DNA of 64,000 bases. Source: Aquisphaera giovannonii. Its GTDB lineage: Bacteria > Planctomycetota > Planctomycetia > Isosphaerales > Isosphaeraceae. Made by a program: the position numbers and the translations under genes. The notes under the pieces are model-generated. The model was not told the origin of the DNA. It saw only the letters and a program-made list of their open reading frames with translations, and searched no databases. The DNA is taken from NCBI RefSeq assembly GCF_008087625.1, contig NZ_CP042997.1, positions 7,998,001 through 8,062,000 on the forward strand. Direction: 5' to 3'. Every line of letters starts with the position of its first letter. The first letter of the stretch is position 1. Shown in pieces: positions 32,776 to 54,843 of the stretch.

Positions 32776-35700
32776 TCATCGCCAGTCGATCGCCTGGACC
32801 CAGTCCAGCCCGCGGTCGTAAAGGTCGAGCCGGTCCACCTTCCCGGTCGCGACGCGGGCGAAGACGAGCTCGGGATGCCGGGGCGAGGACGGCGTCCTCT
32901 TCCGCGGCACGATCCAGACCGCCGAGCCTCCGTCGGGGGACCAGCAGGGCTGGCCGTGGGCCCGAAGGTCGGCGTACCCCGGGTAGACTTGATTAAACTC
33001 GAAGAGGTCCCTCGGCGGCCCCTCGGCCAGGTCCCGGACGACGGCGAAATGACGGACCCGGCCGTCTACGTGTCGCCGCTCCTCGTACGCAATGCGGCCG
33101 CCGTCGGGCGAGAACCGGGCGGCGATGCTGTCCAGCGGCGGGCCCGACGTCAGGGGGATCCGGCCGGTGCCGTCGGGGCGGAACAGGTCGATCTGGCGGA
33201 GCGGATAGGTCCCCTTCGTCGGGTGTTCGAAACTCCGGCCCGGGTTGGCCCCCATGACGGCCAGGGACGTGCCCGCGGGGGACCAATCCCAGACCACGTC
33301 GGACGCCGGGAGGGGCAAGGGCGTCTCCCGGCCGCTCGCGACGTCGAGGATGACATTCCGAGACTCGCGGCCCTTTGCGCGGATCACGGCGAGCTGCGTC
33401 CCGTCCGGGGACCAGGCCGCGACCTGGCCGCCGGCCGCGAGCATCCGGCGGTCTCCGGCCGCGGTGAGCAGCCATATTTCCTCGCGAGACGCGTCGCCCC
33501 GGCCCCGGGCCACGTTGTAGGCCAGCCGCGTGCCGTCGGGGGACTCGCGGCCGGAATTGATAGTGGACTCGTCGCCCGGCCTCAGGACCGTTTCGAAGCC
33601 CGTCCCGCCCGGGTCCATCTGCTCGATGGTCGAGCCGCTCGTCCGGCCGTCGCGGATCGTGCCGAAGAGGATGAGCTTCCCCCTGAACGAGGGCGACGGC
33701 TTCCGAGCCGCCGGCGTCGTCGGGTTCGGGGCGAGCGCCCCCGCGACGGCGACGGCGAGGTCCTCCCCGGGCCCGAGGTCGCCCGGGAGCGGCGCCGACC
33801 GCGGCACCTCCGGCGTGCGGCCCATGAGGCCCTCCCAGACGCCGAACAGGCCCCACGCCCGGACGAGCGGGGCTTTCTCATCGCGGATCCATCGGAGCGC
33901 CACGTCGGACTCGCCGGACTCCGCGAGCGCGGAGGCGAGGCTGGCGGTCGCGGCCGTCGCGGTCCCCACCGACCGACGGTCGCCCCGGACGACCGTGATC
34001 TGACGCCGGACGAGCTGGAAGAGGTCATCGGCCTCCCGGGTACGCCGCGCCTGGGCGTGGGCCCGGGCCACGTCCACGAGGGCCCGCAACCGACAGAGCT
34101 CGTCCGGGATCGTGTCGGCGATGCTCCTCGCCCGGGCGAGCTCGCCCTTGCGGGCGACGGCCGCGACGACGGACAGCAGGGCCTCCCCCTTCCAGGACGC
34201 GTCGCCGATCCGGCCGGCCGTCTCCAGCGCCTCGTCCGTCTCGTCCCGGCCGGCCTGGGCGGCGGCGATGTTCTTCCGGGCGATGTCGCCCCAGGGCGCC
34301 CTCGCGATGCCGGACGCGAGCTCCTTCGCGTCCGCGACCGAGCCCGAGGATGCGAGGACGCCGGCGAGCTCGGCCCGGACCGAAGGCCCGCCGTCGCCCG
34401 ATCCATCGACCGGGATCGCCGCGGCGACCTTGCGGGCCTCCTTCAGGATCTCGGCCGCGTCGACGCCATTCCTGTGCAGCTCCGCCGCCGCGATCCGGGT
34501 CAGGGCCACCGCGCGCGAGTAAGCCTCCGGGATGGCCCGGGCCGCGGCGAGGGCCCCCCGGATGTCGGTGCGGTCGGCTTGCTTCTCCGCCGCGATCCGG
34601 AGCGCCTGGGATTTCCACGGCTCGTCGAGCCCGCCGGCGATCCGGTCCGCGATCGCGATCCCTCCATCGCCGGCCAGGGCCTCGGCGATCGCGCCGGCGG
34701 CCTGGTGGCGGTTGTCCCGGCTCCGGATCCGCGCCACGATCGAGACCGCCCGCCGGTGCAGGCCGAGCCGCGCGCAGGCGGCCGCGACGTCGATCCGCCG
34801 ATGGTCGATCTCCGCCTCGTCGGCGGCGGCGACGGCGCGGAGGAGCGTCGCCCTGGCGTCGTCGAGCCGGGCTGCCTTCTCCTGCAAGATCGCCAGCTTG
34901 AGGAGGATCCAGACCCGCTCCTCCGGCTCCTCGATCGCCGGGAGCTGCGCAATCACCTCCTCGGACAGGCCCTTCGACATGTCGGCGGGGAGCGGCATCC
35001 CCGCGTTCGCGGGAGGCGGCCCGGCCGCGTCGCGGGCCGCGGCCGGCCGGACCGGCGGAGTGCCCCGGGATGCCGACGCGGTCCCCAGCACGCCGAGCCC
35101 GGCCGCGAGGACGGCGACCAGGACGAGCCCGCGCCCCGCCATCCCGCCGACGCCCGCCGCGAGGGCGTACGAGGCGGTCGGCGGGCGGAGCGCGGCGAGC
35201 CGGGGCATCGGGATGAGCGTGCTCGCGCCGACCTCTCCCGCCAGCCACGCGGCCAGCCCGCCGGCGGAGATGGCCACGCCCCGCCGCGTCAGGCGGCCGG
35301 CCAGCAACTTGCGGCCCCTGGCCAGCCGGCTGGCGACCGTGCCCTCGGCCCAGCCGAGGCGGCTCGCGGCCTGGGAGCGGGACTGCCCCTCCAGGTCGCA
35401 CAGGACCACCGCCGCGCGGTAGCGGGCCGGGAGGCGGGCGAGCTCTTCATCGAGGAGGCCCGCGAGTTCGCGGCGATCGTCCCACGGCGCGACGGCCGCG
35501 TCGATGGCCACCGCGGCCGATCGCTCGCGGGCGCGTCGCCGAGCGGAGGCGACCCGGAGCTTGAGGGCCGTGCGCGTCGCCACCCCGTGGAGCCAGTGGC
35601 CGACCGAGCCCCGGGGAATGACCGACGCCCCTCGCAGGGCCAGGACGAGGAACGCAGCCTGGAACGCCTCCTCCGCGTCATGCTCGTTCGCCAGGATCCG

Positions 35701-35862
35701 GCGGCAGACGGCCAGGACCATCGGCCCGTGACGCCGGACCAGCTGCTCGAACGCGGATTCGTCCCGGGACTCGACGAACCGGCCCAGGAGCGTGCCGTCG
35801 TCCAGCCCCGCCGAGATCCCGGTCCGGAAAAGCGTCTGGACGTCGCGAGTCATGACATTCAC
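32776..35862 (-). CDS. ECF sigma factor fused to TM segment, TPR-like region and TolB-like propeller
   Basis: A 1028-residue protein with a GTG start (GAGGAG seven bases before it). Residues about 20-190 are an ECF sigma factor: sigma-2 LVRRHGPMVLAVCRRILANEHDAEEAFQ and sigma-4 LPARYRAAVVLCDLEGQSRSQAASRLGWAEGTV. A hydrophobic segment (GRGLVLVAVLAAGLGVLG, about 245-265) would span the membrane. About 300-640 is TPR-like; from about 690 on are TolB/WD40-type blades (ESPDGTRLAYNVARG, WSPDGTQLAVIRA, FSPDGGRIAYEE). This is the ECF01-Gob style of planctomycete sigma factor. It should face outwards with its C-terminal sensor region and bind RNA polymerase inside; release mechanism unknown. Confidence 0.85.
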   Translation of the reverse strand: MNVMTRDVQTLFRTGISAGLDDGTLLGRFVESRDESAFEQLVRRHGPMVLAVCRRILANEHDAEEAFQAAFLVLALRGASVIPRGSVGHWLHGVATRTALKLRVASARRRARERSAAVAIDAAVAPWDDRRELAGLLDEELARLPARYRAAVVLCDLEGQSRSQAASRLGWAEGTVASRLARGRKLLAGRLTRRGVAISAGGLAAWLAGEVGASTLIPMPRLAALRPPTASYALAAGVGGMAGRGLVLVAVLAAGLGVLGTASASRGTPPVRPAAARDAAGPPPANAGMPLPADMSKGLSEEVIAQLPAIEEPEERVWILLKLAILQEKAARLDDARATLLRAVAAADEAEIDHRRIDVAAACARLGLHRRAVSIVARIRSRDNRHQAAGAIAEALAGDGGIAIADRIAGGLDEPWKSQALRIAAEKQADRTDIRGALAAARAIPEAYSRAVALTRIAAAELHRNGVDAAEILKEARKVAAAIPVDGSGDGGPSVRAELAGVLASSGSVADAKELASGIARAPWGDIARKNIAAAQAGRDETDEALETAGRIGDASWKGEALLSVVAAVARKGELARARSIADTIPDELCRLRALVDVARAHAQARRTREADDLFQLVRRQITVVRGDRRSVGTATAATASLASALAESGESDVALRWIRDEKAPLVRAWGLFGVWEGLMGRTPEVPRSAPLPGDLGPGEDLAVAVAGALAPNPTTPAARKPSPSFRGKLILFGTIRDGRTSGSTIEQMDPGGTGFETVLRPGDESTINSGRESPDGTRLAYNVARGRGDASREEIWLLTAAGDRRMLAAGGQVAAWSPDGTQLAVIRAKGRESRNVILDVASGRETPLPLPASDVVWDWSPAGTSLAVMGANPGRSFEHPTKGTYPLRQIDLFRPDGTGRIPLTSGPPLDSIAARFSPDGGRIAYEERRHVDGRVRHFAVVRDLAEGPPRDLFEFNQVYPGYADLRAHGQPCWSPDGGSAVWIVPRKRTPSSPRHPELVFARVATGKVDRLDLYDRGLDWVQAIDWR

Positions 35863-36976: not shown

Positions 36977-38242
36977 TCACGGGCCGGGTGGGCCAACCCA
37001 ATCCTCGTCACCGGGGAGAGGCTCCCCATGTTCAGAGATGAGGAGCCCCGGAAGCCATTTGCGGAGGTCCCGGACTCCTTCTTGCGTGACCAAGGTTTGA
37101 TCGATACGGAGCTTGCGGAGCCCCGTCAGCGTACGGAGTTGGCCAAGACCGGCGTTCGTGATCCTCGTGGAGGACAGGTTCAGGCTTCGCAGGTTGCTCA
37201 ATCCCTTGAGATGGACAAGGCTCGCATCGCCGATCCTGTTGTCGGAAAGGTCGAGGTCAACGAGGCCTTTCAGCCCGCTCAGTCGCTCCATCCCGGCATC
37301 GGTCACGTAGGTGCCTTCGAGGTTGAGTCGTGTGAGTCCACCCAGGGCGGCGAGATGGGTGAGTCCCTCATCGGAGATGCCGTCACCCGAGAGGTCCAGA
37401 GACTTGAGCCCCGGCAACCTCTTCAGCAGCGCGACGGCCTCGTCGCCGACCTCGGTGCAACTGAGGTCAATTTCCTCCAGAGAGGCAATCCCGACGATGG
37501 CGCGCATTTCGGGGAATCCGATCGCGGAACCGTAGAGCTGGAGTCGGACCAGGCCCTTCATGCTCTTCAGTTTGTCGAAGCCCTTCCCCGTCATTCCCCG
37601 GCAATCGACGAGTTCCAGGGCACGGAGGTTGGGCATGCTGACGATCGTGTCAAGGCTTGCGTCGGTGAGCGTGTTGTCGGACAGACTGAGCTCTTCCAAT
37701 GGCATCCCCGCCAGGGCTTGAAAGTCCTTATCAGTCAGCTCATTTTCGCCGAGAGTCAGCTTTCTGAGCTGCTCGAGTCGTCGGACATGGGCGAGGCCGC
37801 CCTCCTTGATCGCGGTGACTTTTAGCCCCAGGAATCGGAGTCGTCCCAGCCCCCTGAGGTGCTTCAGGCCCGGCCCCACGACCTCGGTGCAACCGAGGTC
37901 CAACTCCTCCAGGCGGCTCAGCCCCTCCAGCGCCGGCAGGCCGGCGTCGGTAATCTCATTCATGCGAAGTTCGAGCTTGCGGAGGAACTTCAACGGACGA
38001 ATCCACTGAAGATCAGCATCTTTAACCCCCACCTCCCGGAGATCGACCTCGACTGCGTGGCCCCCGCGTGTGGGATCGCGGCGAACCGCCCCGGGGCCGA
38101 GCTTGAGGAGCGCGGCGATCGCCTTCTCCTCCTCGAGATCAGGCGTGTTCTTCCCGGGACCGGGATAGAACCAGACCGTCGCGGCGAGGGCAAGCCACCG
38201 AATCGACACGGGCCGGCCTCCGATGCGAAGGGGGAGCGGCAC
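36977..38242 (-). CDS. Leucine-rich-repeat protein with N-terminal hydrophobic segment
   Basis: A 421-residue protein. The N-terminus has a hydrophobic segment (IRWLALAATVWFYP) that is a signal or anchor. From about residue 85 it consists of about thirteen leucine-rich repeats of 23-24 residues (LEELDLGCTEVVGPGLKHLR, LRSLNLSSTRITNAGLGQLR), the ribonuclease-inhibitor/LRR-6 type common in planctomycetes. Such domains bind proteins. No enzyme domain. Codon use is slightly less G+C-rich than its neighbours (more A and T in third positions), which may reflect repeat origin or transfer. Start MPLPLRIGGRPV is the only one at the domain edge. Confidence 0.85.
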   Translation of the reverse strand: MPLPLRIGGRPVSIRWLALAATVWFYPGPGKNTPDLEEEKAIAALLKLGPGAVRRDPTRGGHAVEVDLREVGVKDADLQWIRPLKFLRKLELRMNEITDAGLPALEGLSRLEELDLGCTEVVGPGLKHLRGLGRLRFLGLKVTAIKEGGLAHVRRLEQLRKLTLGENELTDKDFQALAGMPLEELSLSDNTLTDASLDTIVSMPNLRALELVDCRGMTGKGFDKLKSMKGLVRLQLYGSAIGFPEMRAIVGIASLEEIDLSCTEVGDEAVALLKRLPGLKSLDLSGDGISDEGLTHLAALGGLTRLNLEGTYVTDAGMERLSGLKGLVDLDLSDNRIGDASLVHLKGLSNLRSLNLSSTRITNAGLGQLRTLTGLRKLRIDQTLVTQEGVRDLRKWLPGLLISEHGEPLPGDEDWVGPPGP

Positions 38243-45096: not shown

Positions 45097-45246
45097 CCGA
45101 CCGGTCGGGCCGGCACGCCTGGCCCGGCCTGGCGGCTCCTGGCGACGGGCCCAATCTCGCTCGCCTGGCCGGAAAGTTGAAATGAAAACCCGGGCCGGCG
45201 GGACTACCGCGGGGGACAGGTCGGCAGGCGTAGGGAGGGCCGCATC

Positions 45247-47614
45247 GTGACGCATGCCATGTGGAGAGACGCGGCCGACGCGGCGAGGGCCGTGGCACCG
45301 GACGAGGTCGATGGCCGGCTCCTGGCGATCTTCCTCGCCCGCGAGGGGCCGTCCGCGGAGCTGGCGTTCCGGCGTATCGTCGAGCGGCATGCCGATGCCG
45401 TCGTGCGGGCCTGCCGCCGGGTGCTCGGCGATCATCACCGGGCGCAGGACGCGGCGCAGGCCGTCTTCCTGGTCCTCGCCCGGAACGCACGGTCGATCCG
45501 GCGGCCCGATTCGCTCGAGGCGTGGCTGCATGGCGTCGCCCTGCGAGTCGCCCGGAGGGCCCGGGACGGCGAGGCTCGTCGCCGGAGGGCCGAGGATCGG
45601 GCCCGGGCCGAGCGGAGCCGGGGCCGGCCGGCCCCGACCGACGAGGCGTACCAGGAACTGCACGAGGAGCTGGCCTCCCTGCCGGACCGCTACCGCCTGC
45701 CGATCATCCTCTGCTACTTCGAGGGCTACACCCAGGAGGAGGCGGCCCGCGTCCTCGGCTGGCCGTACGGCACGGTCCAGGTCCGCCTCCACCGGGCCCG
45801 CAAGCGACTCCGCGAGGCCATGGCGCGGCGCGACCCGGCCCTCCGCGGCGCAATGATGGCGATCCTCGGTCGGCCCGGGGTGCCCTCGAATCCGCCGAGC
45901 GCCGCCTGGGCGGCCGAGACGGCGAGGGCCGCGGTCCAGCTCGCCGGCACGGGCATCGCCGGGGTCGTCGCGCCGTCCGTGGCGTCGCTGGCCTGCGCGG
46001 AGACGGGGATTGCCGCCGGGGCCCCGTTCCTGCCCGGGCTCGGGATCCTGGCGGCGTGCCTGGCCGCCTGCGGGATCTGGTACGCCGGTCCCACGCCCCC
46101 CGGCCGAGCTCCCGCCGCGGGCATCGACGTCCCGGATCGCGGCGGCCGCCGAGGCCGGTCAGGCCGTCGCCGAGGCTTCCCCTGTCGGCGCGGCGGGCGG
46201 GGCGAGGAGGCCATCGCCGAGCAGAGCGAACGGGGCGATTTCGTCGGCGAAGCCGGGGCCATCCGCACCGATCGCCCGGCCTTCGGTGGCGAACTCGGCG
46301 GCGGACGCCGGGCCACCGGCCCGGGAGCGCCCCGAAGAGCCGGCGGGGCGGCCCAATCTCGTGGACGGCCGCGAGCTCTTCGAGCGGGTCTGGGCCGTGA
46401 ACGACCCGCGGGGCCACGGCGGCGACGGCCTGGGGCCGGTGTTCAACGCGCGGTCGTGCGTCGAGTGCCACGACCGGGGTGGGACCGGCGGGGGCGGGCT
46501 CGCGGGCCGGAACATCGACGTCGCGACCGTCGGCGTGCCGGGCGATGCCGGCGGCGGCTTCTTCTACTCGTTCAGCATGAACTTCGGCGGCGACGGCTTC
46601 CAGTACCGCTTCGGCTACGACCCGACCGCGGCCGGTGCGGCGGCCCGGAGCGCCGGCGACCGGGCCGCGGCCGCGGCCGCGGCCGCGCATCCCGGGTTCC
46701 TCGAATCGCCGAGCGTGGTGCTGCATCGCTTCGGCGTCGACCCCTCGTACCAGGCCTGGCGGGCCACCGTCCCCGGCCCTCACGGCACCCTCAACGTGGC
46801 GATCTCGCAGCGGAACCCGACGCCGCTGTTCGGCGCCGGTCTGATCGAGTCGATCCCCGACGAGGCGATCCTCGCCGCCGCGAGGCGGAGGAACTCGCAA
46901 TCCCGGGGCCGGGTCAGCCGCGTCGAGGGCGGGCGCATCGGCCGGTTCGGCTGGAAGGCCCAGGCCGCGACCCTGGCCGAGTTCGTCCGGTCCGCGGCCT
47001 CCGGCGAGCTGGGCCTGGAGGTCCCCGGCCGCCGCCAGGCCGACGACCCCCGCCTGCCCGGCGGCCTCTCGCCGGGCCTGGACATGGACGAGGCGGACTG
47101 CGAGGCGCTGACGCGGTTCGTCCGCGACCTGCCCCGCCCCGTCGCGTTCGCGCCCGCCGCCGCGAAGGAGGCCATCGACGTCGAGGAGGGGTCGCGGGCC
47201 TTCCGGTCCATCGGCTGCGCGGTCTGCCACCTGCCGAGGCTCGGCGACGTGGACGGCCTCTACAGCGACCTCCTGCTCCACGACATGGGCCCGGACCTCT
47301 CGGACGTCGGCGGCTACGCCGTCTTCGGCGCCGGCCCCCTCGCCGCCCCGGCCGCGGCCGCCCCCGACCCGGCGCGGGCCGACCGTCCTGACACCCGGGC
47401 GCGCGAGTGGCGGACGCCGCCGCTCTGGGGCCTCCGCGACTCCGGGCCTTACCTCCACGACGGCCGAGCGGCCACCGTCTCGCAGGCCATCCTGCTCCAC
47501 GGCGGCCAAGGGTTGCCCTCGGCCGAGCGCTTCGCCCGACTTTCCGCCCGCCGCCGTCGCCAGGTCGAGGCCTTCCTCATGACCCTCTCCGCCCCCGCCC
47601 GCCCCGCCGGTTGA
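45247..47614 (+). pseudogene. ECF sigma factor fused to di-haem oxidoreductase, broken by an apparent frameshift
   Basis: The first part (GTG 45247, ribosome site AGGGAGG) reads as an ECF sigma factor: FRRIVERHADAVVRACRRVLGDHHRAQDAAQ (sigma-2) and LPDRYRLPIILCYFEGYTQEEAARVLGWPYGTV (sigma-4). A hydrophobic segment near FLPGLGILAACLAACGIWYA follows. Then, in the next frame (+1), comes a DUF1111-type di-haem oxidoreductase with CVECH and CAVCH, GDGLGPVFNARSC, IGRFGWKAQAATLAEFVRS and the family end LRDSGPYLHDGRA, to 47614. The frame changes somewhere between about 46090 and 46330. The first frame stays open until 47391 but with an unnatural arginine-rich sequence, so a frameshift in one fused gene is more likely than two genes; a sequencing error is possible, as is a real break. 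Confidence 0.75.
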
Positions 47615-48320
47615 CGGGGACGGGCCGCACCGCCACCGGGCGGAGAGCCTGCCGGAGCAGGCCGCCACGCGCCTTTCTTTGCTGTTTCCAAAGCCCGTCG
47701 CAGGCCGGGATGGCGATGTCCCCGGGCGACGGCGGGACGACGCCCGGGGAGCCGCCGCGTCGCGAGTCGGTCAGGGCCGTATGCCCTCGAGCTCGTGCGA
47801 CCCATGTCCTAAGAGCGGCTGGGGCGCGCACGGGGACCGAACCCCGCGATGTTCGTGTCCGCACGGCGGCGACGCAAGCCGAGGCCGATGAGGTCGCAGT
47901 CCGGAGCCGAATCAGAGTGGGTGTCCCGGTGCTGGTCCTCGCCCTGGCGTGGCCGCCAAGGTCGTTTAACTTGGCCTGAAGGACCCGCGTGGAAATCCGA
48001 GTTCGAATAGGATAGCGGGGGCCTGCCCGCCGCGGACGTCCGCCGGCATGCCTCGGGGCCGACATCGCGGACGCCGGGATCGGACCCCGCGGGTCGGTGG
48101 AGCGGCTGGCGTCGGGGCAGCCGGCTCGCAGAGCCGCCCGGTCACGAAGCCGCGGCGCCGGGACCGGGGCCCCGACCCCGATCCGACGTCGCCACATGGT
48201 CTTACCGCCAGCAGCCCCCGATCGTCTCGTGTGACTTGTCCGAAAGCTGCAACCCGATCGGCCCACCGTTACATTACTAGGGACGGTGAAGAGACGGCAC
48301 GCTGGGCGAGGGTCAGGACG
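47615..48320. other. Intergenic region
   Basis: This 706-base gap contains no convincing gene; open frames in it are short, arginine-rich or opposite to a gene. A less G+C-rich patch, CGTTACATTACTAGGGACGG at 48267-48286, lies just before the sigma-TolC gene and may be part of its promoter. Confidence 0.4.
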
Positions 48321-50552
48321 GTGGCGATCGCGAAGGACCGAACCATTACGCGTCAGCTCGCGGCCCTCTTCGACGCCGGGGCGATCCGCGCGCTGACGGA
48401 CGGGCAACTGCTGGAACGATACAGGCGAGGCGACGGCGAGCCCGCGGAGCTCGCCTTTGCGGCCCTGGTGGAGCGCCACGGCGAGATGGTGCTGCGCGTC
48501 TGCCGAGCCCGGCTGGCGGACCCCCAGGATCGGCAGGACGCCTTCCAGGCGACGTTCCTGGTGCTGATCGAGAGGGCCCGAAGCCTCTGGGTGAGGGATT
48601 CGCTGGGCCCCTGGCTGCACCAGGTCGCGTTGCGGACGGCCTCCCGTGCCCGGGCGTCCGCGATCCGCCGGAGGCGGCTCGAAGGCGAGGCGGCCGAGGT
48701 CGCGGCCAATCGCGAGCCGCACGAGGCGGGTGTCCCGCCGGAGGTCGCGGCCGTCCTCCACGAGGAGATCGGGCGCCTGCCCGGACGTTACCGCGTGCCG
48801 ATCGTGCTCTGCGACCTCGAGGGCCGCACCTGCGAGGAGGCGGCGAGGCTGCTGGGCAGGCCGGTCGGCACGATCAAGTCCTGGCGGTCGCGGGGCCGCG
48901 ACCTCCTGCGACGCCGGCTGATCCGGGCGGGCCTGGCGCCCGCCATCGGGATCGAGGCCGTCATCGCCGCGGATATCGCCCGGGCTTCCGGATCGGATGC
49001 GACGGCCGGGCGGATGGTCCGGGCCGCGATCCGGATGGGATCGGAGGGGTCGGGCGTCGGGATCGTCCCGGCGTCGGTTCGCACGCTTTCCAGAGGAGTC
49101 GCTCGATCGATGTTACGCCAACAAGGGGGGATGATCCTGGCGGGGCTCCTGGTCGCCGCCGGCCTCGGCACCGGGATCGCGGCGGCGATGCAGGCCGGCG
49201 GCGACGGGGCGAGGCGGCCGGCCGATGCCGCGGCGGGGGCGGCCCATCGGCGGCCCGCCGCGCCGCCGCCCCCGGACGTACCGGCCGCCGCCGCGCCTGG
49301 CGGCGAGACCTGGCCGCTGTCCCTCCGCGACGCCATCCGGATCGGGCTGGAGAACAGCGAGGCCGTCCGGGTGATCGAGCCCGATGCGAAGGGCGGGCCC
49401 GCCGAGGGACGCGAGGCGGCGCGACCGGGGGCGGCCGACGGCGTGTCGCCGCTGGTCATCGCCCCCGCGTCGCCGACCGGCGATCTCGAGCGGTTCCGGT
49501 CCGACGTCATGGGCAAGGTCCGCCGGATCGCGTTCGAGTACTGGTTCCTCTCGGCGGCCCACGTCCGCGTCTGGGCGTCCGAGCGGGCCGTCGCCGAGGC
49601 GAAGGAGATCCGCGATCGCGAGCAGGCCGAGCTCGTCGCGGGCAAGGGGGTGGTGGGCGATGTCGCCGAGGCCGCCCAGCGGCTCGAGCAGTTCAGCCTC
49701 GACCTGGTGACCCGGACCTCCGACCTGATGACCCACGAGCGGCAGCTCCGCAAGCTGATGGGGACGCCAGCGGCCGACAACCGCAGGATCGTCCCGACCA
49801 CGCCACCTCGTCACGTCGAGGACCCGCCGGCCCTGAAGCGATGCCTGGCGGACCTGTTCGCGAATCAGCCGGAGGTCCTCCGGGCGAAGCGACTCCTTAC
49901 CGACGGCCAGGGTCATCGGGCCGAGGACCTGGACGGGGCGGCCGAGGCCCTCATCCCGGAGCTCGCCGACGGCGCGGGTGGGCCGGCCGCGTTGCACGAG
50001 GCGCAGGCCCTCCTCGAGCCGTTCGGGGCGGGGAGCCTGGCCCTGCGCCAGGCCATCGACCAGGCCAGGGGCGCGGTGGTCCGCTCGCGCCAGGAGGCCG
50101 AGCAGAAGTCTCGCCAGTTCCAGAACGCGGCCCGGCTGCGAATCGCCGCCGGCCAGCGACTCGACGCCCAGCGGGCCTACCATGAGGAACGCCGGATCAC
50201 GATCGACCGCATCCTCGACGCGGTCAGCCAGTATTACGACTCCGTGGGCAAGGAGGCCGACTACCGGGCGCAGTACGCCATCGCCATGGACTCGCTCGAG
50301 GCGGACGAGGGAACCCTCCTCAAGACGGCCGGGATCGCGACGGCGGAAGCACCACGAAGCGAGCCGGCTCCACTCCATCGCCAGGCGATCGGCGCCGGGC
50401 GAGCCGCCGAAGCCGCCGAACGCCCAAGGGCGGGCGAGGACGCCCCGGGGACGGACACCACCGGCAGGACTTTCTCCTTCCACTTCACGCTCAAGACCGG
50501 CCCCAGACCGATCGAGGTCCATGGATCATTCACCGTCGGGCCGGCCCGCTAG
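48321..50552 (+). CDS. ECF sigma factor fused to a TolC-like domain
   Basis: A 743-residue protein. The GTG at 48321 (VAIAKDRTITRQLAALFDAG) is chosen because family members start here; no ATG is near. The ECF sigma part includes LVERHGEMVLRVCRARLADPQDRQDAFQATFL and LPGRYRVPIVLCDLEGRTCEEAARLLGRPVGTIKSW. A membrane segment GGMILAGLLVAAGLGTGIAAAM lies near residue 275. After a proline-rich linker, WPLSLRDAIRIGLENSEAVRVI, then GDVAEAAQRLEQFSLDLVTR and RQLRKLMGTPAADNRRIVPT match planctomycete TolC homologues (efflux outer-membrane factor domain). It is expected to lie across the inner membrane with the TolC-like part outside. A sigma factor fused to this domain is unusual. Confidence 0.82.
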   Translation: MAIAKDRTITRQLAALFDAGAIRALTDGQLLERYRRGDGEPAELAFAALVERHGEMVLRVCRARLADPQDRQDAFQATFLVLIERARSLWVRDSLGPWLHQVALRTASRARASAIRRRRLEGEAAEVAANREPHEAGVPPEVAAVLHEEIGRLPGRYRVPIVLCDLEGRTCEEAARLLGRPVGTIKSWRSRGRDLLRRRLIRAGLAPAIGIEAVIAADIARASGSDATAGRMVRAAIRMGSEGSGVGIVPASVRTLSRGVARSMLRQQGGMILAGLLVAAGLGTGIAAAMQAGGDGARRPADAAAGAAHRRPAAPPPPDVPAAAAPGGETWPLSLRDAIRIGLENSEAVRVIEPDAKGGPAEGREAARPGAADGVSPLVIAPASPTGDLERFRSDVMGKVRRIAFEYWFLSAAHVRVWASERAVAEAKEIRDREQAELVAGKGVVGDVAEAAQRLEQFSLDLVTRTSDLMTHERQLRKLMGTPAADNRRIVPTTPPRHVEDPPALKRCLADLFANQPEVLRAKRLLTDGQGHRAEDLDGAAEALIPELADGAGGPAALHEAQALLEPFGAGSLALRQAIDQARGAVVRSRQEAEQKSRQFQNAARLRIAAGQRLDAQRAYHEERRITIDRILDAVSQYYDSVGKEADYRAQYAIAMDSLEADEGTLLKTAGIATAEAPRSEPAPLHRQAIGAGRAAEAAERPRAGEDAPGTDTTGRTFSFHFTLKTGPRPIEVHGSFTVGPAR

Positions 50553-51639: not shown

Positions 51640-54600
51640 ATGGATCACGTCCATCATGCCGCCCCGGGGAGCTTCCCGTGGGACCTCTTCGAAGTCTTCA
51701 CGCCGCGCCGGCAGTGCATGAACTTCGAGGCGGACGTCATCTGGCTCCACTTCGTCTCCGACCTGCTGATCGCCGCCGCCTATTTCTCCATACCCATCGC
51801 GCTGGTCCGCGTCGCCGGCCGTAGGCCGGGGCTGCGGTACAACTGGATGCTCAACCTGTTCGCGCTGTTCATCGTGCTCTGCGGCACGACCCACCTGTTC
51901 AACGTCTGGGCCCTCTGGCAGCCGCTCTACCGGCTCGACGGCCTGGTGAAATTCGTGACCGGGGTCGTCTCCGCCGCGACGGCCGCGACGCTCTGGCGGC
52001 TGATCCCGAAGGTGCTGACCGTCCCGACGGCCGCGGAGCTTGCCCGCCTCGCCGAGGAGCGGGCCGAGGAATTGCGGGCGAGCGAGGCGACCCTGCGGGC
52101 CTTCTACGACAGCGCGCCGGTGCTCATGGGCGTCGTCGAGCCGCTCCCCGACGGCGACCTCCTCCACCATTACGACAACCGCGCCGCGTGCGCCTTCTTC
52201 GGCGTCGCCCCCGAGGGCACGCAGGGCCGGCGCGCGAGCGAGATGGGGGGGGCGACCGCGATCATCCGCGAGTGGCTCCCCCGCGGCGAGGAGGCGGGGG
52301 AGCCCGGCCGGACGAGCCGATTCGAACGCGGGGTCGAGACGCCCGGGGGCACGCGCTGGCTCGTGGCCTCCGTGGGCCCCCTCGGCGCCGCCCGCTCGGG
52401 CCCCGCGCGGTTCTGCTACGTGGCCGAGGACGTCACGGAGCGGAGGGCGGCCGGGGCGGCCCTCCGCGCGGCGGAGGAGCGGTTCGAATTCGTCCGCCGC
52501 TCCGCCGGCGTGGGGTTCTGGTACTGCGACCTGCCGTTCGAGGAGCTGGAGTGGGACGACCTGGTGAAGGGGCATTACCACCTCCCGCGCGACGCCCGCG
52601 TCACGATCGAGGCCTTCTACGAGCGGCTCCACCCCGACGACCGCGACGCCACGCGAAGGGCCATCGAGCGGAGCATCGCGGAGCGGTCCCCGTACGACGT
52701 CCGGCATCGCACGGTGGCCCCCGGCGGGACCTCCGAGAAGTGGATCCGGGCGATGGGCCGCACCTGGTATGACGCCGACGGCACCCCCCGCCGATTCGAC
52801 GGCGTGACGATCGACGTCACCGACGAGGTGCGGGCGGACGAGGAGCGGGCCCGGCTCCTCCGCGAGGTGGAGACCGAGCGGGCGAGGCTCGCCGACGTCT
52901 TCCAGCGGGCGCCGTCGTTCATGTGCGTCCTCCGCGGCACGGACCACGTCTTCGAGCGGGCCAACGACCATTACCTGAAGCTGATCGGCCGCCGCGACGT
53001 CATCGGCAAGCCCGCCCGCCTGGCCCTCCCGGAGGTGGAGGGCCAGGGCTACTTCGAGACGCTCGACCGCGTCTACCGCACGGGCCAGGCCGTCTCCGGC
53101 TCGGGGCAGAGCCTGCGGATCGCCCGTCGCCCCGGCGAGCCCCCGGAGGAGCTGTTCGTCGACTTCGTCTACCAGCCCATGCGGGAGCCCGACGGGTCGG
53201 TGGGCGGCATCATCGTCCAGGGCATCGACGTCACCGACCGCCTCCGCGCCGAGGAGGCGCTGAGGGGCCAGGAGAGGCGGTTCCAGCAGCTCGCCGAGTT
53301 CATCCCCCAGCTCGCCTGGATGGCCCGGCCCGACGGCTACGTCTTCTGGCACAACCAGCGCTGGTACGAGTACACCGGCGCCAGGCCCGAGGACGTGGAG
53401 GGCTGGGGCTGGCGATCGGTCCACGACCCGGCCCTCGCGCCGGGCATCCTCGACCGCTGGCGGGCCTCCATCGCCGCGGGGCGGCCGTTCGAGATGGTCT
53501 TCCCGCTCCGCGGCGCCGACGGCCGGTTCCGGCGGTTCCTCACGCGGGTCGCCCCGTTCAAGGACGGCGACGAGATCCAGCTCTGGTTCGGCACCAACAC
53601 GGACATCGAGGACCAGCTCCGCGGGCAGGACGAGCGCGAGCGGCTGCTGAGGCAGGCGGAGGCGGCGAAGGAGGAGGCGGAGGCCGCCAACCGCATGAAG
53701 GACGAGTTCCTCGCCGTCCTGTCGCACGAGCTCCGCACGCCGCTCAACGCCATCATCGGGTGGGCCCGGATCCTCCGCACGCCCGGCATCGGCGAGGAGG
53801 ACAGGGCCGAGGGCCTGGACGTCATCGACCGCAACGCCAAGGTCCAGGCCCAGCTCATCGAGGACCTGCTGGACATCTCGCGCATCATCACGGGCAAGCT
53901 CGTCCTGGACGTGCAGCGGGTCGACCTGGGCGAGGTCGTCGGCGCGGCCCTGGACGCCGTCGCCCCCGCCGCCCAGGCCAAGGGGATCCGGATCACCAAG
54001 GTGCTCGACCCGTCCGCCGGCCCCGTCTCGGGCGACCCCAACCGGCTCCAGCAGGTCGTCTGGAACCTGCTCACCAACGCCGTCAAGTTCACGCCCGGCG
54101 GCGGCCAGGTCCAGGTGCTCCTGGAGCGGGTCAACTCGCACGTCGAGCTCTCCGTCATCGACACCGGCCAGGGCATCGCGCCGGAGTTCCTGCCCCACGC
54201 CTTCGACCGCTTCCGCCAGGCGGACGGCTCCACCACGCGGAGGCACGGGGGCCTGGGCCTGGGCCTGTCCATCGTCAAGCAGCTCGCCGAGATGCACGGC
54301 GGGTCGGTCCGCGTGAAGAGCCCCGGCGAGGGCCAGGGCTCGACGTTCGTCGTGGCCCTCCCCATCGCGGCCGTCCTGCCGGAGCAAGCGGGCCCGGCCC
54401 GGCCGGGCCAGCCCGGCGTCGCCCCGTCGTCCGACCCGTGCGAGGGCAACCAGCTCGGCGGCCTCCGGGTCCTGCTGGTCGACGACGAGCCCGACGCGAG
54501 GCACCTGATGAGCCGCGTCCTGGGGGGCTGCGGGGCCGACGTGGAGGCCGCCTCGTCGGTCGCCGAGGCCCTCGACCGCATCGGCGACTTCAGGCCGGAC

Positions 54601-54843
54601 GTCCTCATCAGCGACATCGGGATGCCCGAGCGGGACGGATACGACCTGATCCGGAACGTCCGCCGGATCTTCTCCGCCAAGGACCTCCCGGCCGCGGCGC
54701 TCACGGCCTTCGCCCGCCCCGAGGACCGGATGCGGGCCATGCGCGCGGGCTTCCAGGTGCACGTGGCCAAGCCGGTGGACCCCGAGGAGCTGGTCGCCGT
54801 CGTCGCGACCCTGGCCGCCAGGACCGGCCAGGGCGACCTGTAA
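51640..54843 (+). CDS. Hybrid sensor histidine kinase with ethylene-receptor-like membrane domain
   Basis: A 1067-residue protein from the ATG at 51640 (MDHVHHAAPGSFPWDLFEVF). Residues about 33-115 have three membrane helices with SDLLIAAAYFSIPIAL and FIVLCGTTHLFNVWAL. They match the ethylene-binding domain of plant ETR1: Asp41, Tyr48, Cys81 and His85 fall at the same spacing as ETR1 Asp25, Tyr32, Cys65 and His69, the copper/ethylene site. Then come about four PAS/PAC domains (residues ~145-660), a HisKA domain with LSHELRTP (His696), an ATPase domain (NLLTNAVKFTPGGG, DTGQGIAPEFL, GGLGLGLSIVKQL) and a receiver with phosphorylatable Asp992 (ISDIGMPERDGYDL). It should be an inner-membrane sensor of ethylene or a similar small ligand. 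Output partner not seen. Confidence 0.92.
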   Translation: MDHVHHAAPGSFPWDLFEVFTPRRQCMNFEADVIWLHFVSDLLIAAAYFSIPIALVRVAGRRPGLRYNWMLNLFALFIVLCGTTHLFNVWALWQPLYRLDGLVKFVTGVVSAATAATLWRLIPKVLTVPTAAELARLAEERAEELRASEATLRAFYDSAPVLMGVVEPLPDGDLLHHYDNRAACAFFGVAPEGTQGRRASEMGGATAIIREWLPRGEEAGEPGRTSRFERGVETPGGTRWLVASVGPLGAARSGPARFCYVAEDVTERRAAGAALRAAEERFEFVRRSAGVGFWYCDLPFEELEWDDLVKGHYHLPRDARVTIEAFYERLHPDDRDATRRAIERSIAERSPYDVRHRTVAPGGTSEKWIRAMGRTWYDADGTPRRFDGVTIDVTDEVRADEERARLLREVETERARLADVFQRAPSFMCVLRGTDHVFERANDHYLKLIGRRDVIGKPARLALPEVEGQGYFETLDRVYRTGQAVSGSGQSLRIARRPGEPPEELFVDFVYQPMREPDGSVGGIIVQGIDVTDRLRAEEALRGQERRFQQLAEFIPQLAWMARPDGYVFWHNQRWYEYTGARPEDVEGWGWRSVHDPALAPGILDRWRASIAAGRPFEMVFPLRGADGRFRRFLTRVAPFKDGDEIQLWFGTNTDIEDQLRGQDERERLLRQAEAAKEEAEAANRMKDEFLAVLSHELRTPLNAIIGWARILRTPGIGEEDRAEGLDVIDRNAKVQAQLIEDLLDISRIITGKLVLDVQRVDLGEVVGAALDAVAPAAQAKGIRITKVLDPSAGPVSGDPNRLQQVVWNLLTNAVKFTPGGGQVQVLLERVNSHVELSVIDTGQGIAPEFLPHAFDRFRQADGSTTRRHGGLGLGLSIVKQLAEMHGGSVRVKSPGEGQGSTFVVALPIAAVLPEQAGPARPGQPGVAPSSDPCEGNQLGGLRVLLVDDEPDARHLMSRVLGGCGADVEAASSVAEALDRIGDFRPDVLISDIGMPERDGYDLIRNVRRIFSAKDLPAAALTAFARPEDRMRAMRAGFQVHVAKPVDPEELVAVVATLAARTGQGDL

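Follow-up and report, generated by a model that had tools for sequence, protein, structure and literature searches.

Positions 45247-47614 of the window (by which we mean the whole stretch of 64,000 nucleotides from Aquisphaera giovannonii analyzed here) read as a sigma factor in one frame and as a di-haem oxidoreductase in another. The question is whether the two halves form a single gene and, if so, where and why its frame is broken and what the intact protein would do.

The N-terminal half opens at a GTG start in frame 1 and comprises an ECF sigma factor followed by one membrane segment (Table 1). Its assignment to the ECF type rests on matches above cut-off to both Sigma70_r2 and Sigma70_r4_2 of Pfam and on a score of 78.8 bits with TIGR02937, the sigma70-ECF model (cut-off 42.9). 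The membrane segment contains the most hydrophobic 19-mer of the tail (46021-46077; KD 1.93, compared with 1.5-2.1 at the equivalent place in relatives). The C-terminal half, in frame 2 and beginning no later than 46361, scores 92 bits with PF06537 (cut-off 22), a family now named DHOR and formerly DUF1111, and carries two CXXCH sites. This half has neither a start, nor a ribosome site, nor a signal peptide of its own: there are four candidate starts, none of which is followed by a hydrophobic stretch. Note that long spurious frames are normal in the window since its G+C content is 71.6%, and that the openness of a frame alone is thus no proof that it is translated. No known anti-sigma domain was detected by Pfam in the window gene, including the stretch between sigma region 4 and the membrane segment, nor in six intact fusions from relatives.

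Table 1. Features of the sigma-oxidoreductase locus in the window
Feature	Position	Strand	Evidence
Shine-Dalgarno-like GGGAGGG	45233..45239	+	sequence; 7 nt upstream of the GTG start
N-terminal half, frame 1 (ECF sigma, juxtamembrane stretch, membrane segment)	45247..46089	+	
Sigma region 2, including conserved Cys56	45376..45579	+	Pfam PF04542, E 1.4e-9
Sigma region 4 helix-turn-helix, including conserved Cys156	45652..45810	+	Pfam PF08281, E 6.9e-18
Single membrane segment APFLPGLGILAACLAACGIWY	46021..46083	+	hydrophobicity
Variable linker containing the +1 frame change	46090..46360	+	
C-terminal half, frame 2 (DHOR di-haem oxidoreductase; stop at 47612-47614)	46361..47614	+	PF06537, E 4e-26
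First haem c site, CVECH	46457..46471	+	sequence; invariant in alignments
Second haem c site, CAVCH	47216..47230	+	sequence; invariant in alignments

Of 45 Isosphaeraceae genomes searched with the DHOR half, 37 contained a match. In ten Isosphaeraceae genomes other than that of the window, a sigma factor, a membrane segment and a DHOR domain lie in this order in one open frame, as opposed to the two frames of the window copy, and the sigma parts are 45-64% identical to that of the window (residues between stops: G027, 804; G029, 803; G028, 798; G021, 808; G037, 922; G038, 926; G013, 915; G009, 910; G008, 910; G019, 944). Pfam recognized Sigma70_r2, Sigma70_r4 and DHOR together in all six of the intact proteins checked. 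The three closest fusions share 62-64% identity with the window gene over the sigma factor and membrane segment and 66-70% over the DHOR domain, and the linkers of the closest relatives are 82-97 residues long and rich in Pro, Ala and Ser. Because the arrangement exists in one frame in ten other genomes, we conclude with high confidence that the window gene is a true fusion of a sigma factor, a membrane segment and a DHOR domain, which is frameshifted in the present assembly. The sequence-only reading had described a sigma factor fused to a DUF1111 oxidoreductase, with a sound ECF sigma factor and membrane segment upstream and a sound, leaderless di-haem oxidoreductase in the +1 frame downstream; each of these points was borne out, and the comparison with related genomes that it had proposed revealed no separate sigma and DUF1111 genes in the closest relatives. 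Two separate genes that merely overlap would fit with the free-standing DHOR genes known in the family, but the fusion in the closest relatives and the lack of a plausible start and leader for the DHOR half leave this explanation next to no credibility.

Free-standing DHORs do occur in more distant relatives; many of them have leaders, and a related sigma gene is absent within about 1.5 kb. No further fusion was seen in 246 genomes of the phylum and 248 of the class, searched with the DHOR query at a strict cut-off and with only the longest frames read. Long DHOR frames in G306, G408, G432, G476, G023, G040, G026, G025 and G015 were considered as sigma fusions and rejected on reading, as were the second and third DHOR copies of G019 and the third copy of G013. 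Three DHORs from G019 and G015 (L061, L062 and L113), which have no sigma domain, display a hydrophobic segment after 45-75 residues and then a long Pro/Ala linker, and are apparently membrane-anchored. The gene neighborhood of the fusion loci shows no conservation from one genus to another, and the surroundings of the gene therefore suggest no regulon.

Stop codons cannot place the shift, since frame 1 is open up to 47391 and frame 2 from 45857, so that both stay open across the overlap. Homology confines it to 46090-46360, and third-position G+C switches phase near 46150-46300. When third-position G+C and codon usage were combined, a single +1 change was best placed at 46285, with 46261-46336 almost equal, and reading the region in one frame was 58 nats worse. 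Synonymous codon choice alone gave the same switch point and disfavored a C6 run located at 46096-46101 by 18 nats. Amino-acid composition conflicts with this placement: translated in frame 2 over its full length, the linker is rich in Pro, Ala and Ser, as in the intact relatives, and translated in frame 1 it is rich in Arg and Gly, which would put the change nearer the membrane segment, at the C6 run. The frameshift thus sits somewhere in 46090-46336. One net shift is enough to account for the data; a model with three shifts in the linker (+1, -1, +1) gains 11.7 nats, but was rejected since gains of up to 17.7 nats from two switches are found in ordinary genes. We also considered the linker as an inserted repeat of the genome itself, for which only short, weak matches were found.

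Both halves are well preserved. The window copy keeps 59 of the 60 near-invariant columns of the DHOR domain and 32 of the 34 of the sigma factor, values within the range of intact genes, which rules out an old relic. Moreover, scanning the 64 kb with the reading frame taken into account revealed no second comparable switch within a real gene, the remaining switches being, by our reading, adjacent genes or situated opposite called genes. The near-complete conservation of both halves, together with the uniqueness of the switch, leads us to attribute the shift either to a sequencing error or to a very recent mutation.

We give a roughly even chance to the shift being a sequencing or assembly error only, in which case the living strain would encode an unbroken fusion protein, about 789 residues long. 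The absence of decay in either half, the intact frame in ten out of ten relatives and the sufficiency of one net shift all fit this explanation, as does the linker itself, which is very G+C-rich and contains homopolymers and self-complementary stretches. On the other hand, the assembly is not generally error-prone, as judged from the lack of any other switch within a real gene in the 64 kb, and the hairpin potential is ordinary for the composition (z -0.58). One particular hairpin, at 46308-46324, was considered as a cause of error and proved no better than shuffled sequences.

That the shift is real and recent strikes us as plausible, if somewhat short of an even chance. The newly broken gene would then yield a sigma factor whose membrane segment is followed by an out-of-frame tail, and the secreted haem domain would be lost. 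The gene is perhaps dispensable: it encodes the sole DHOR found in the genome, and the search with the DHOR half found no close copy in the two other genomes of the genus. Insertions are also tolerated in such linkers. Indeed, that of the otherwise intact fusion of G029 contains, in frame, a palindromic repeat some 123 bp long (L067, 7396-7518), which is dispersed in the G029 genome with 86 matches on both strands; this example shows that the linkers of Isosphaeraceae fusions accept foreign DNA. However, about 1.25 kb of DHOR sequence carries no second lesion, whether a stop, a further shift or the loss of conserved residues.

Runs such as six C are a known kind of +1 slippage site, and the run at 46096-46101 raises the question of a programmed +1 shift in the linker, by which both a sigma-membrane form and the fusion would be produced. 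We consider this very improbable: each of the ten relatives reads in a single frame, so that neither the shift nor a shift site is conserved, the unshifted frame lacks an early end and continues to 47391 as an Arg-rich out-of-frame sequence, and codon usage favors a later switch by 16-18 nats. We therefore retain the two explanations of an error or a very recent break. The sequence-only reading had placed the changeover at 46090-46330, which is about right, and had offered a fused gene with an error or slippage or else a recent break, a choice upheld by the one-frame relatives and the undecayed halves, programmed recoding being unlikely.

The origin of the pairing was addressed with a tree built from 43 DHOR domains, in which the fused DHORs fell in separate places and forcing them together cost 86 log units (AU p 2.2e-8). 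Hence the pairing of sigma factor and DHOR appears to have arisen at least twice, unless the DHOR domain was exchanged. The window gene, G027, G028 and G029 form one DHOR clade and the six longer fusions, extended by about 100 residues at the C-terminus and separate in origin, form another; G021 groups with the first clade in the sigma tree and has no firm place in the DHOR tree. Repeated origin is the weaker evidence for a functional pairing here, given that sigma cores of this type are found attached to many domains. Genome-wide, the sigma half has 64 matches, some 50 of which are strong, and the frames that hold them are mostly 450-1460 residues long. The paralogues sampled share a core in which sigma2 and sigma4 are followed by a juxtamembrane stretch and then by a hydrophobic segment, and they differ in the module that comes next (of 28 scanned, five had a carboxypeptidase regulatory-like module, two had WD40 and two had DUF1559). 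The two conserved cysteines recur in this family, that of sigma2 in 39 of 39 aligned sigma rows and that of sigma4 in 38 of 39, the window gene included.

Two further members of this sigma family lie in the window. Just downstream, 48048-50552 (+) encodes a second fusion of a sigma factor and a membrane segment, the outer part of which has a weak Pfam match to the outer-membrane efflux protein family OEP (TolC-like; 7.8e-4, below cut-off), and 32776-35853 (-) encodes a third sigma fusion, of 1025 residues, near the C-terminal end of which lies a PD40 beta-propeller repeat. The window further contains a hybrid histidine kinase at 51640-54843 (+), which has PAS, kinase and receiver domains after an N-terminal match to ETR1_N (ethylene-receptor type, E 1e-36), and a leucine-rich-repeat protein of 410 residues at 36977-38209 (-).

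As regards the haem domain, the predicted model of the DHOR half has a mean pLDDT of 62, with core blocks above 85, and the solved structures that it matches best (E 7.8e-6) are those of di-haem cytochrome c peroxidase and MauG, although the superpositions are loose. The fold predicted for the sigma half from three sequences was too poor for use (mean pLDDT 53.6). Since the same invariant residues are found in fused and free DHORs, the fused ones have probably retained redox chemistry. Haem c sites require export, and the sigma domain is for this reason most likely cytoplasmic and the DHOR domain extracytoplasmic; the residues flanking the membrane segment offer little positive-inside evidence. 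The genome encodes cytochrome c assembly proteins (PF01578) and candidate site-2 proteases of the M50 family, the latter being, to our knowledge, near universal.

These elements would fit a protein in which sigma2 and sigma4 lie in the cytoplasm and are connected by one membrane helix and the linker to an extracytoplasmic di-haem, MauG-like domain. The membrane tether would hold the sigma domain away from promoters, and a change in the haem domain, be it of redox state or brought about by peroxide or an electron donor, would lead to release of the sigma factor, probably through proteolysis in or near the membrane by analogy with IutY (see below). That the protein is a tethered sigma factor freed on a redox or peroxide signal is a tentative proposal that we hold to be a little less than evenly probable. 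With similar caution, we suggest that it may be a one-protein redox or peroxide sensor, the outer peroxidase-like domain of which directly controls the sigma factor across the membrane without a separate anti-sigma factor; this sensor would have evolved at least twice in Isosphaeraceae and would belong to a large modular set that combines one sigma-membrane core with many outer domains.

Sigma factors that bear C-terminal extensions or are fused to membrane parts are already known, and the broken copy by itself carries little weight. We found no description of a sigma factor whose outer part is a di-haem oxidoreductase in the literature searched, the coverage of which was incomplete. The fusion would provide a clear, testable case in which outer haem redox chemistry is coupled directly to transcription, and it suggests how one sensor might be dedicated to each sigma factor in those planctomycetes that have dozens of these paralogues.

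Three known systems invite comparison. The haem sites, the near-invariant columns and the predicted cytochrome c peroxidase/MauG-type fold are common to the window gene and the free-standing DHOR (DUF1111) di-haem peroxidases, but the latter are secreted and have no sigma domain. In other bacteria, free-standing DHORs sit beside imelysin genes (PMC3143127); no imelysin was found in the window's genome. As for the sigma factor, its family resembles the planctomycete group ECF57 as judged from the published description. ECF57 members have a long C-terminal extension, in which WD40 repeats are prevalent, and a conserved cysteine in each of sigma2 and sigma4, their regulation is described as involving protein interaction, and the listed example is from Singulisphaera (PMC8999054). 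The window gene has both cysteines and a long extension, but the latter is a di-haem oxidoreductase located beyond a membrane segment and contains no WD40 repeat.

Finally, release by proteolysis has been proposed for ECF48, ECF52 and ECF53, and in IutY of Pseudomonas putida (ECF243) a sigma factor and a membrane-spanning regulatory part form one polypeptide, from which the sigma factor is released by Prc and RseP (PMC8999054). The regulatory part of IutY is an anti-sigma part that answers a siderophore system, whereas the window gene has a di-haem domain, and no known anti-sigma domain was found in it by Pfam. Both place a sigma factor and a membrane part in one chain, and IutY is the nearest tested precedent for such an arrangement.
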